Shown here: positions 13,383 to 17,014 of the stretch, one piece after another | Layout of the letters: each line of letters starts with the position of its first letter | Numbering within the stretch: position 1 is the stretch's first letter | Source of the DNA: Candidatus Babeliales bacterium | GTDB lineage: Bacteria > Babelota > Babeliae > Babelales > JACPOV01 | Reading direction: 5' to 3' | NCBI GenBank assembly: GCA_020054235.1 | Contig: JAGVLQ010000021.1 | Span: 1 to 54,083 of the forward strand | Length of the DNA stretch: 54,083 nt | The notes under the pieces: model-generated | What the model saw: only the letters and a program-made list of their open reading frames with translations | The model's database searches: none | What the model was told of the DNA's origin: nothing | Translations under genes and position numbers: made by a program

Positions 13383-13383
<1 letters not shown>

Positions 13384-13718
13384 TACTGTTTTGATTTTTT
13401 GTTTGCAATATGAACGTAGGCATTTTTTTTTACCGATAATTCTTCTTGTTTACATTTTTGATTTTCAGCAAAGTACCTAAGATAAATTTTTGCTTCACCT
13501 TCTTTATTGCCTAAAACAGTTATTACAAACTGTTCATGTGGATTAATTTTATCTTGGCAATCTACAATCTGTGGAAAACCTCGAAAACCACTTTTCATTT
13601 GTTGGTACTTTGCAATTACTATTAAATGGGATTCATTTTTTATCAATAAGCTACGATGCTCCAAACACACCAAGTGTGTAACCCCGATTAATAAAACAAA
13701 TGCAATAATCTTCCGCAT
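13383..13718 (-). CDS. Small secreted protein, unknown family
   Basis: The 111-residue product has a hydrophobic signal-peptide-like start (about residues 1-18, MRKIIAFVLLIGVTHLVC). A beta-rich domain follows with SLLIKNESHLIVIAKYQ and EQFVITVLGNKEGEAKI, ending in a lysine-rich tail. The Cys at residue 18 could be a lipobox, but the preceding residues do not fit well. GGAG about ten bases before the ATG supports the start. The domain pattern is compatible with a small immunoglobulin-like fold, which is inference only. Confidence 0.65.
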
Positions 13719-13792
13719 CTAAAACACTCCAGAAAATCACTTTTATAAACTAAAAAAATATTCTATGCTCCATAATAAATAAAGGAGTCTAT

Positions 13793-14665
13793 ATGATTAG
13801 TATTCCACCATATTTAATGCAAAATTTGCAATATCTTGGAGTTTTTTCCTGGAAAGATCCCGTTGAAATTTTATTTTTTTCTTGGTTAATATATCGATTT
13901 TCATTGTGGCTTAAAGAAAACCAAACCCATACACTTTTGATTCTTTTTTATCGACTCTGCTTATTGTTAATTTGTTCACACTTTTTTCAATTTACTACCA
14001 TTAATTCATTTTTTTTCTTATATGGCCCTGCTTGTATTATGCTTTTTATCTTGGTTCATCAAGAAACATTACAGCAAAATTTTGTTACCATGAAAAAAAT
14101 AAAACCATTGAAAAATCAAACCCAAGCAAATTGGTTAGAAGTGTTATTGCGCACCTGCTTACGCACTCAAAATGCTCATAAATCATTTATTTGTATTATT
14201 GAGCAATCCGATGAACTTTCTTTATTACTTGAAGCTCCATTTTTTATGAAAAATACGATCACTGACGACTTGCTTGTATTGTTACTAGAAAGTCCACATT
14301 TAAATCCTGAAAAATTAGTTTGGCTTTCTCAGGATGGAACAATTAATGCTGTTAATGCTCTGTGGAAAAAACCTATTGATCAAACATGGCTGGCTGATAA
14401 TGTTAAAAATCAAGAAGCTTGGATTGCAAATGCCATTATGACAACACAAAAAACCGATGCCTTAGTTTTTAAATCGAATGCACAATCAGGAACTTTTGAT
14501 GTCGTTGCACAAGGAAAACTAATTGAACATCTTTCTGCAACCAATACACTACGCATCATTCGCCATTATCTTAACGTTGGCCCTCAAGCAATACCAAAAA
14601 AAGGAGATCCTGTGTATGAAAAATCTCAGCATAAAAAATCTACTGTGGAGCAATCTCACCATTAA
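13793..14665 (+). CDS. cdaA: CdaA-like diadenylate cyclase homologue, catalytic motifs lost
   Basis: CdaA makes c-di-AMP and sits in the cdaA-ybbR(cdaR)-glmM operon of many bacteria, exactly the order here. The N-terminus has three hydrophobic segments (about 24-40, 47-65, 70-90) as in CdaA. A domain of DAC size follows with a matching secondary pattern, including TDALVFKSNAQSGTFDVVAQGKL near residues 221-243. The catalytic DGA motif aligns with P172-E173-K174, and the RHR motif with N206-Q207-E208. Both are therefore absent and the enzyme is probably inactive. AAAGGAG upstream and an intact reading frame argue that the protein is still made. Family assignment rests on operon order and pattern. 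Confidence 0.75.
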   Translation: MISIPPYLMQNLQYLGVFSWKDPVEILFFSWLIYRFSLWLKENQTHTLLILFYRLCLLLICSHFFQFTTINSFFFLYGPACIMLFILVHQETLQQNFVTMKKIKPLKNQTQANWLEVLLRTCLRTQNAHKSFICIIEQSDELSLLLEAPFFMKNTITDDLLVLLLESPHLNPEKLVWLSQDGTINAVNALWKKPIDQTWLADNVKNQEAWIANAIMTTQKTDALVFKSNAQSGTFDVVAQGKLIEHLSATNTLRIIRHYLNVGPQAIPKKGDPVYEKSQHKKSTVEQSHH

Positions 14666-15005
14666 GTCTTGTTCTTTCATAGTAGGTTTTGGCTTATGGT
14701 CATTCCTGAGTCAATCTCAACGTTGCTCAATTTCTTGCTTAGCCCCAATTTGCATAATTCATAAAAATACGCAAAATATTAGCTGTCCTCCTTATGCGGA
14801 AGTTACATTGGCTGGGCAAAGATCACACTTGAGTAAACTTGATCTAAGTTCAGTTGCAATACATATCGATGCTCATAAATTACAAGAAGGAAAAAATATC
14901 ACGATTATTGCAGAAAAAGACCTTCTTTTACCTTCTTATATTAACATGCTAGACTGTAATCCTCGAATCGTTGAGCTTATCGTTGAACCATCAAAGGGCA
15001 CTTAG
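14616..15005 (+). CDS. ybbR: YbbR/CdaR-like single-domain membrane protein
   Basis: YbbR-domain proteins regulate CdaA in Firmicutes. This one has 129 residues: one membrane segment (about 17-32, CSFIVGFGLWSFLS, with the GLW typical of the family) and a single YbbR-like repeat with EVTLAGQRSHLSKLDLSSV and IHIDAHKLQEGKN. Many YbbR proteins have three or four repeats, so it is short. The ATG at 14616 has AAGGAG ten bases upstream, inside the end of cdaA. The two genes overlap by 50 bases in different frames, and the stop directly abuts the glmM ATG. Confidence 0.75.
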   Translation: MKNLSIKNLLWSNLTIKSCSFIVGFGLWSFLSQSQRCSISCLAPICIIHKNTQNISCPPYAEVTLAGQRSHLSKLDLSSVAIHIDAHKLQEGKNITIIAEKDLLLPSYINMLDCNPRIVELIVEPSKGT

Positions 15006-16325
15006 ATGATTGATAATTTATTTGGAACTGATGGAATTCGTACAACATTTGGCCTAGAGCCTCTTACTGTTCCTGCCCTCACTCAATTAGGGCAAGCAAT
15101 AGCACAATGGGCACAAATAAAATATCGACCAAATCCATCAATTCTTCTGGCACACGACACTCGCCTTTCATGTTCAATAACAAAATCAGCCCTAAAAAGT
15201 GGTCTCCTGCTCTACCCCGTTACTCTAATTGATGCACAAGTTCTTCCCTCACCTGCTCTCGGTGCTCTTTTGCAAAGCACAAAAGAATTTGATTTTGGCA
15301 TTATTATTTCTGCATCGCATAATCCTTATCAAGATAATGGCATCAAATTGATAGATCCTTGTGGAAAACTTGATTATTCCGATGAACTGAAAATTTCACA
15401 ACTTTTTGCACAAAAATATTCAAATACAGATTATACCAATTTGGGAACTGAAAAATTTAATAACCTTGAACGAACTTATAGAGAACATCTACAAAATTAT
15501 TTTAAAAAAGACTTTTTATATAATAAAAAAATTATTCTTGATTGTGCACATGGCGCAACCTACTCTTTAGCCCCTCAAATTTTCAAACATTTTGGTGCAG
15601 AGGTTATCACTCTTTTTGATAAGCCTAATGGACTTAATATTAATAAACTATGCGGAAGTTTGTATCCCGAAACATTACAGAAAGCTGTTGTAGAATATAA
15701 CGCTGATATAGGTTTTGCGTTTGATGGTGATGGCGATCGCGTCCTTGCTGTCAATCATTTTGGTCATATCAAAAATGGTGATGATATTCTTGCGCTGCTT
15801 TTGGAACATCCCTCCTACAAACCTATGAAAACCGTTGTTGGCACTATAATGACCAATCAAGGTTTTGAAGTCTTTTTAAAAAAATCACAAAGAGCTTTAA
15901 TACGCACACCGGTTGGGGATCGCCATGTGACAGAATTTTTAACTAAACACCAGCTTTTACTTGGGGGCGAACCATCTGGCCATATTATTTTACGTGATTA
16001 CCTAAGCTCCGGTGATGGTATTTTTACTGCATTGAAAACGCTGGAAGCTATTGATTATTGCAATAATTGGGATTTACAAACCTTCAAAAAATTTCCGCAA
16101 ATTCATACCACAATACGTACAAATAATAAAAAAGATTTAAATCAATTACCATTTTCTGAGATAATAGAAGCAAGCAAAGCACAACTGCATCAAGGTCGAT
16201 TGGTTATTCGCTATTCCGGAACAGAACCCGTATTGCGAATTATGGTCGAAGATGATGATTGTGAAAATGCACAGACAGTTTGTTCAACATTATCAAAAAA
16301 ATTACAAGAAACGCTATTACAATAA
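15006..16325 (+). CDS. glmM: Phosphoglucosamine mutase
   Basis: GlmM converts glucosamine-6-phosphate to glucosamine-1-phosphate on the way to UDP-GlcNAc, peptidoglycan and LPS. The sequence shows FGTDGIR at the start, the active-site phosphoserine loop ISASHNPYQDNGIK (Ser near 103), the metal loop FDGDGDRV, GGEPSGHII and the phosphate-binding RYSGTEPVLRIM. All key motifs are intact, in contrast to the dead CdaA homologue two genes upstream. The ATG follows the ybbR stop with no gap, so translation is probably coupled. The length of 439 residues is normal. Confidence 0.96.
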   Translation: MIDNLFGTDGIRTTFGLEPLTVPALTQLGQAIAQWAQIKYRPNPSILLAHDTRLSCSITKSALKSGLLLYPVTLIDAQVLPSPALGALLQSTKEFDFGIIISASHNPYQDNGIKLIDPCGKLDYSDELKISQLFAQKYSNTDYTNLGTEKFNNLERTYREHLQNYFKKDFLYNKKIILDCAHGATYSLAPQIFKHFGAEVITLFDKPNGLNINKLCGSLYPETLQKAVVEYNADIGFAFDGDGDRVLAVNHFGHIKNGDDILALLLEHPSYKPMKTVVGTIMTNQGFEVFLKKSQRALIRTPVGDRHVTEFLTKHQLLLGGEPSGHIILRDYLSSGDGIFTALKTLEAIDYCNNWDLQTFKKFPQIHTTIRTNNKKDLNQLPFSEIIEASKAQLHQGRLVIRYSGTEPVLRIMVEDDDCENAQTVCSTLSKKLQETLLQ

Positions 16326-16348: not shown

Positions 16349-17014
16349 ATGGAACAAAAAAAATTCTTTTTTGCAAAACTTTTTGATTACTTCAAAAATT
16401 CCTTTTTACAAGGCTTACTAACAGTTCTACCAATTACATTAACGTTAGCCCTTTTTACCTTTTTCTTTCGCTTACTCAAAGGCTGGTTAGCGCCCATCTA
16501 TCTTTTGGAACCAGAATATTTACAACGAATTCCTCATTCTGAAATTTTCTTAGTTATTCTTTTTATTCTAGTTATCGGCGCAATTTTTAAAACATTTTTT
16601 ATTCGGTCATTCTTGCATTTCATTGAAACAATTTTTTTCAGAATTCCACTGATGAATCCAGTTTATTCTGGCATCAAGCAACTAGTACAAGCATTCACCG
16701 TTCCTGAAAAGTTAACCTTTAAGCAAGTGGTATTGGTAGAATTTCCACGCCAAGGAATTTTTAGTATAGGTTTTTTAACGAGCCAAGTTCCTCAAGAAAT
16801 AGCGCCAGCTAAGCATAAAAAATTCTATAATGTTTATATTCCAACTACCCCAAATCCAACAACAGGCTTTCTTGTTATAGTCTCAGAAGATGATTACAAA
16901 GTAGTTGATATGACACGACAAGAAGCTATGTCATTGATTATTTCGGGGGGAATCATTCAACCTGATAGATTTATAAAAAGATTCCTTATTGAAGAAACGC
17001 TATCCACCAAATGA
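16349..17014 (+). CDS. DUF502 family membrane protein
   Basis: The 221-residue product has two membrane segments (about 17-38 and 63-85). The family-typical sequence around IPLMNPVYSGIKQLVQAF follows, then VVLVEFPRQGIFSIGFLTSQ and the later NPTTGFLVIV and MTRQEAMSLIISGG. This layout is that of DUF502 proteins, which have no firm biochemical role. The ATG at 16349 has GGGGGA five bases upstream. It begins 23 bases after glmM and is probably the last gene of that operon. Its stop overlaps the end of the convergent holA-like gene by 15 bases. Confidence 0.85.
   Translation: MEQKKFFFAKLFDYFKNSFLQGLLTVLPITLTLALFTFFFRLLKGWLAPIYLLEPEYLQRIPHSEIFLVILFILVIGAIFKTFFIRSFLHFIETIFFRIPLMNPVYSGIKQLVQAFTVPEKLTFKQVVLVEFPRQGIFSIGFLTSQVPQEIAPAKHKKFYNVYIPTTPNPTTGFLVIVSEDDYKVVDMTRQEAMSLIISGGIIQPDRFIKRFLIEETLSTK

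Follow-up and report, generated by a model that had tools for sequence, protein, structure and literature searches.

A diadenylate cyclase-like membrane protein of the Dependentiae that lacks both catalytic motifs and is retained with YbbR

We describe a protein of the CdaA family, here called CdaA*, that has kept the three membrane helices and the diadenylate cyclase (DAC) fold of the family and has lost both of its catalytic motifs. It is encoded in a 54,083-nucleotide stretch of DNA from a Candidatus Babeliales bacterium (the window), which belongs to a 1.25-Mb assembly of 29 contigs that is 95% complete. Its homologues are widespread in the phylum Dependentiae (TM6), where they occur in the same genomes as a YbbR-like protein. 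We consider it rather probable that CdaA* is a pseudoenzyme derived from CdaA and retained as YbbR's partner in the membrane, where its role would be linked to the cell wall and independent of c-di-AMP.

Fold and active site of CdaA*

The features of the locus are collected in Table 1. The ybbR-like frame overlaps the end of cdaA* by 50 nucleotides, and glmM starts immediately past the ybbR stop. Start codon, ribosome binding site and overlap are all kept, in agreement with the first-pass annotation of this DNA, which had also recognised the gene order and the membrane-plus-DAC layout of CdaA. This gene order, cdaA-cdaR-glmM on one strand, is present in the window and in most carriers of cdaA*; glmM is missing in ten. 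No Rfam match was found near the CdaA* locus. A 111-aa signal-peptide-like ORF without a Pfam match lies between trpS and cdaA* (13383-13718, minus strand), and the upstream neighbours in this interval vary from genome to genome. Elsewhere in the window an ORF of 1122 aa (41189-44557, plus strand) has no Pfam match at 1e-5.

Table 1. Features of the CdaA* locus in the window, with the genomes that carry cdaA* without a canonical glmM
Feature	Position	Strand	Basis
Ribosome binding site AGGAG of CdaA*	13783..13787	+	sequence read
CdaA*, membrane-anchored DAC-fold pseudoenzyme, 290 aa, ATG start	13793..14665	+	ORF, TIGR00159, AF2 and Foldseek, 67/101 phylum genomes
Three transmembrane helices, residues 21-100, including HQxxLQKNF motif from residue 89	13853..14092	+	AF2 helices 21-42, 46-64, 68-100
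DAC-like cytoplasmic domain, residues 114-260, without active site	14132..14572	+	profile alignment, motif survey, AF2, Foldseek
Ala128, in place of B. subtilis CdaA Arg126 (GlmM contact)	14174..14176	+	alignment
E173-K174-L175 in place of catalytic DGA	14309..14317	+	profile alignment to 9g69
W210-I211-A212 in place of catalytic RHR	14420..14428	+	profile alignment to 9g69
YbbR-like protein (CdaR equivalent), one TM helix and single YbbR domain	14616..15005	+	ORF, Pfam YbbR, AF2, Foldseek
GlmM with intact catalytic residues, lacking the acids that contact CdaA in Firmicutes	15006..16325	+	TIGR01455 E 2e-115, residue check
DUF502 membrane protein, old pair with glmM	16349..17014	+	PF04367 E 2e-31; adjoins glmM also in cdaA*-less genomes
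Carriers without canonical GlmM: G044, G065, G066, G031, G009, G077, G043, G090, G099, G017	loci L125, L059, L118, L109, L111, L095, L104, L119, L070, L071		

CdaA* resembles CdaA/DacA (TIGR00159; PF19293 and PF02457) in its three transmembrane helices, its cytoplasmic DAC fold and the gene order cdaA-ybbR(cdaR)-glmM. It differs from these proteins in lacking DGA, RHR and the arginine that contacts GlmM, and it scores far under the family cut-offs. TIGR00159 matches residues 22-251 of the window protein with an E-value of 1.4e-4 and 21.3 bits, against a curated cut-off of 188.8 bits. CdaA_N is matched weakly, in 9 of 24 members, with an E-value of 0.071 in the window protein and of 4.6e-5 in the best relative, and the window protein has no match to the Pfam DAC domain (PF02457). 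A profile built from 24 relatives finds the CdaA structure 9g69 at 6e-11, in an alignment that spans both the membrane helices and the DAC domain.

An AlphaFold2 (AF2) model of CdaA*, built from 28 phylum sequences, has a pLDDT of 81, with most of the DAC-like part above 90. Comparison of this model with CdaA, which had been proposed as a check, returned a DAC fold: the best 50 Foldseek matches in the PDB are all diadenylate cyclases (CdaA, DacA and CdaM), with E-values from 2e-9, and TM-scores by target among these 50 are mostly 0.66-0.79. Because the profile match to CdaA structures agrees with the AF2 and Foldseek matches, both the homology of CdaA* and its DAC fold stand. The two proteins differ in the stretch that follows the last membrane helix, which reads FQPEIRRALE in CdaA and HQxxLQKNF in CdaA*; H89, L93 and Q94 of the latter are invariant in the homologue alignment.

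The catalytic motifs of Bacillus subtilis CdaA are D171GA and R203HR (PMC8573169). Neither DGA nor RHR was found in any of the 66 full-length homologues, at the aligned positions or elsewhere, and the possibility that CdaA* holds intact motifs at another place in the protein was rejected. The first-pass annotation was thus right that the motifs are absent; its positions for them were wrong, by one residue for DGA (given as 172-174) and by four for RHR (206-208). Both catalytic loops are highly variable, the RHR loop is deleted in part in several homologues, and the first arginine of RHR is replaced by tryptophan in 35 of the 66. What is conserved instead is structural: the glutamate of an IE strand (62/66), the aspartate of an SDA strand (64/66) and the HQxxLQKNF motif. 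A lone HDG string occurs in the C-terminal tail of a single homologue (L079). Since both catalytic motifs are lost, CdaA* is predicted to be incapable of making c-di-AMP by the known mechanism.

Distribution of CdaA* and its association with YbbR

Homologues of cdaA* are found in 67 of the 101 Dependentiae genomes, about two thirds, and nearly all are free of internal stops; a 68th match, in G070, was left out as a spurious fragment. The 30 named relative loci of a narrower alignment are mostly from candidate division TM6, Candidatus Dependentiae or Babeliales, and a contig search with the single CdaA* protein as query gave no matches. As both motifs are missing from 66 of 66 full-length homologues, which stand in the ancestral gene order, this loss appears to be phylum-wide and is probably older than the radiation of the present carriers.

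The YbbR profile matches the same 67 genomes as CdaA* and none of the other 34, and ybbR lies directly 3' of cdaA* in 64 homologue loci. Four genomes (G037, G029, G086 and G082) have trpS adjoining glmM, the cdaA*-ybbR pair being gone from between them. A search upstream of glmM in non-carriers found no hidden divergent cdaA* or ybbR. The physical linkage of the two genes is not strict, since in genus g46 cdaA* (L093/L096, L107 and L115) lies apart from ybbR-glmM (L184-L186), with all three genes kept.

CdaA* also co-diverges most strongly with YbbR. In a mirror-tree analysis of 39 genomes, with TrpS as control, the partial correlations are 0.47 for CdaA-YbbR, 0.49 for GlmM-DUF502, 0.30 for CdaA-GlmM (p 0.006) and 0.13 for YbbR-GlmM; for adjacent, overlapping genes such co-divergence, like co-occurrence, can partly mirror shared inheritance.

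The YbbR fold of the partner protein is confirmed by its predicted structure. Pfam YbbR is detected in 12 of 36 members of this family. The AF2 model has a pLDDT of 92, and its four best Foldseek matches in the PDB are YbbR domains (5hqh, 4qdy, 2kq1 and 3lyw), the match to 5hqh having an E-value of 6e-5. The protein shares with CdaR/YbbR (PF07949; Listeria lmo2119, PDB 5hqh) the single transmembrane helix, the YbbR fold and the overlap with cdaA. The CdaR proteins of lactic acid bacteria contain three or four YbbR domains (PMC10243994), whereas the Dependentiae protein has one domain in about 130 aa. CdaA and CdaR of Firmicutes interact through their membrane helices, and even in model Firmicutes CdaR/YbbR has no known function (PMC10243994).

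GlmM and the rest of the operon

The GlmM encoded downstream is intact at its catalytic loops, as had been annotated; both the catalytic serine loop (S100) and the DGDG metal site are preserved. All GlmM proteins of the phylum, including that of the window, fall under the TIGR01455 cut-off (0/101 above), so GlmM in this phylum will escape automatic naming.

The first-pass annotation suggested that a dead CdaA is kept as a dock or regulator, holding or tuning GlmM at the membrane and thereby controlling the supply of cell-wall precursors. CdaA:GlmM complexes are known in Firmicutes (PMC8573169; PDB 9g69 and 7olh), the order cdaA-ybbR-glmM is kept in most carriers, and the CdaA-GlmM partial correlation points the same way. 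The interface is not conserved, however. Arg126 of B. subtilis CdaA contacts GlmM residues D151, E154 and D195, and the R126A substitution abolishes the complex (PMC8573169). Across the 66 homologues the column of Arg126 contains K in 15, N in 12, H in 7 and R in 3. In the GlmM of the window the three acids are replaced by K, N and H, and across the phylum these positions vary, with no clear difference between lineages that carry cdaA* and those that do not. The likeness to the B. subtilis complex (PDB 7olh; PMC8573169) is that both proteins come from one operon; the differences are that the residues of the interface salt bridges are absent on both sides and that GlmM is dispensable in Dependentiae.

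The presence of CdaA* is also statistically unrelated to that of canonical GlmM. Over the 101 genomes, 57 have both, 10 are carriers without canonical GlmM, 26 have GlmM alone and 8 have neither (p 0.29); the corresponding counts in genomes at least 90% complete are 42, 8, 15 and 3. Most genomes without cdaA* keep glmM. In the ten carriers without it (Table 1) DUF502 comes after cdaA*-ybbR and the place that glmM usually takes is without it, so assembly gaps are not the cause. Values of dN/dS remain low in the two pairs of such genomes that were tested (0.08 for G031/G009 and 0.17 for G099/G017).

A phosphomannomutase-like paralogue is present in most of these ten genomes and MurA in nine of them, which would make them natural cases of GlmM replacement. 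The B. subtilis protein PgcA illustrates that phosphoglucosamine mutase activity can occur in such paralogues (PMC6797236).

A docking role cannot explain why genomes that lack GlmM retain CdaA*, unless GlmM has been replaced there by the phosphomannomutase-like paralogue. Because that paralogue could take the place of GlmM, also as the docked partner, the proposal is weakened rather than removed. As stated it is not supported, given the absent contact residues, the ten carriers and the independent presence of the two genes, and we regard it as unlikely. Some coupling of CdaA* with GlmM is possible, as the adjacency of their genes in most genomes and the partial correlation of 0.30 would allow, and the two might meet through a different interface. 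The same three observations weaken GlmM as a constant partner of CdaA*.

The adjacency of glmM and DUF502 is also seen in genomes without cdaA*. Together with the separate losses, this indicates that the locus consists of two pairs, cdaA*-ybbR and glmM-DUF502. DUF502 was rejected as a constant partner of CdaA*; it trails glmM where the cdaA*-ybbR pair is absent, and it is missing in several carriers. Two other arrangements were seen around glmM. Upstream of glmM, most members of the clade without the pair (L158-L182) have a divergent gene whose product, of about 220 aa, has six TM segments. In G021 (L105) two tandem GlmM-like open frames follow ybbR, one of which lies on a very long branch of the GlmM tree.

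c-di-AMP, selection and the cell wall

No Pfam DAC domain above the cut-off was found in any of the 101 Dependentiae genomes, and 11 of 14 control genomes were positive. Eight matches below the cut-off equal the degenerate homologue in the size of their open frames, and those that were checked sit at its locus. The presence of another DAC, still active, in this genome or elsewhere in the phylum was rejected, as there is none above the cut-off. The ydaO (c-di-AMP) riboswitch and, above its cut-off, the PgpH extracellular domain are likewise absent from all 101 genomes, which sets the Dependentiae apart from the hosts of CdaA/DacA. The loss of c-di-AMP synthesis, which the first-pass annotation had also proposed, is supported by these three absences, with DAC and PgpH judged at the cut-off. 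The missing motifs, riboswitch and PgpH argue against the production of c-di-AMP from ATP by CdaA*.

The pocket might instead have been remodelled, so that it still binds a nucleotide as a sensor or belongs to a cyclase with a different product. The conserved fold and the conserved glutamate and aspartate of the domain speak for this. Against it, the catalytic loops vary widely, with deletions of the RHR loop in several members, no conserved polar or metal-binding set substitutes for the motifs, and neither the c-di-AMP riboswitch nor PgpH above the cut-off was found. We consider this reading somewhat less likely still than docking of GlmM.

The dead DAC-like domain is under purifying selection. 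Between close genome pairs dN/dS of this part is 0.08-0.35, of the same order as for the membrane part, YbbR and GlmM; the frames run from stop to stop and include a few upstream codons, and several pairs have a dS close to saturation. In G001/G002, the cleanest pair with a dS of 0.4, the ratio is 0.09. A decaying pseudogene or chance open frame, for which the genome reduction of the phylum and the very low similarity to active CdaA might speak, is refuted by the presence of largely stop-free homologues in 67 of 101 genomes and by dN/dS well below 1, with the start, ribosome binding site and ybbR overlap kept and the DAC fold confidently predicted, and is most improbable.

CdaA* thus shows the homologous fold, the missing catalytic residues and the purifying selection of a pseudoenzyme. 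Pseudoenzymes are a known kind, and we rate a phylum-wide one in the CdaA family as a case not met in the open-licence literature searched; those papers describe no DAC homologue that is inactive, nor do they treat c-di-AMP in the Dependentiae. The degenerate GGDEF domains, for example that of GdpP (PMC10243994), are similar in that a nucleotide-cyclase fold outlives its canonical activity, although both the fold and the messenger differ.

The losses of the cdaA*-ybbR pair tend to coincide with those of MurA. Within the families that carry the module, and ignoring phylogeny, 62 genomes have both CdaA* and intact MurA, five are carriers without MurA, three have MurA alone and six have neither (p 0.00015, with G086 counted as broken). 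The five carriers without MurA are mostly incomplete genomes. In G086, MurA is in two pieces with stops (G086:C4:42337-43568), and cdaA*-ybbR and a clear MreB are also lost. The pair is lost and MurA kept in G029 and G037. G051, a single contig of 1.1 Mb, lacks MurA, canonical GlmM, DUF502 and the cdaA*-ybbR pair; it appears to resemble Babela massiliensis, which has been described as lacking murein synthesis (PMC4378268). The pattern of MreB is no clearer than that of MurA: neither the pair nor a clear MreB is present in G051, G082 and G086, and G019 and G092 keep CdaA* without a clear MreB. A large clade (families f5, f8, f11, f12, f15 and f17; SH-aLRT 95 in the GlmM tree) has no cdaA*-ybbR pair and mostly retains MurA; a wall therefore does not require the pair.

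The reading that we favour is therefore one in which YbbR, and not GlmM, is the partner of CdaA*. CdaA* descends from CdaA, whose DAC fold and three helices in the membrane it keeps, and it has lost both catalytic motifs; co-occurrence, gene overlap and co-divergence indicate that selection holds it as an obligate partner of YbbR. The two proteins most likely sit together in the inner membrane, the YbbR helix against those of CdaA*, the YbbR domain facing outward and the DAC-like domain lying in the cytoplasm. Because CdaA and CdaR of Firmicutes bind through their transmembrane parts and losses of the module tend to accompany loss of MurA, we infer that the pair would serve the homeostasis of the cell wall or envelope through protein contacts, without a second messenger. 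GlmM would be an operon neighbour and possibly an optional client of the pair, and not a required partner.

More tentatively, the CdaA-CdaR(YbbR) complex may in general have a conserved envelope or cell-wall job that is independent of c-di-AMP, the Dependentiae having dropped the enzyme and kept the job; we think this quite conceivable without calling it probable. If it is true, the Dependentiae reveal a function which c-di-AMP hides in Firmicutes and other bacteria. For annotation, sharing an operon with glmM is a poor guide to function in this phylum, and to name these genes diadenylate cyclases would be wrong. With c-di-AMP synthesis lost and a dead CdaA kept strictly with YbbR, the pair would do more than regulate a cyclase, and the Dependentiae pair offers a clean test of the function of CdaA-YbbR beyond cyclase regulation.
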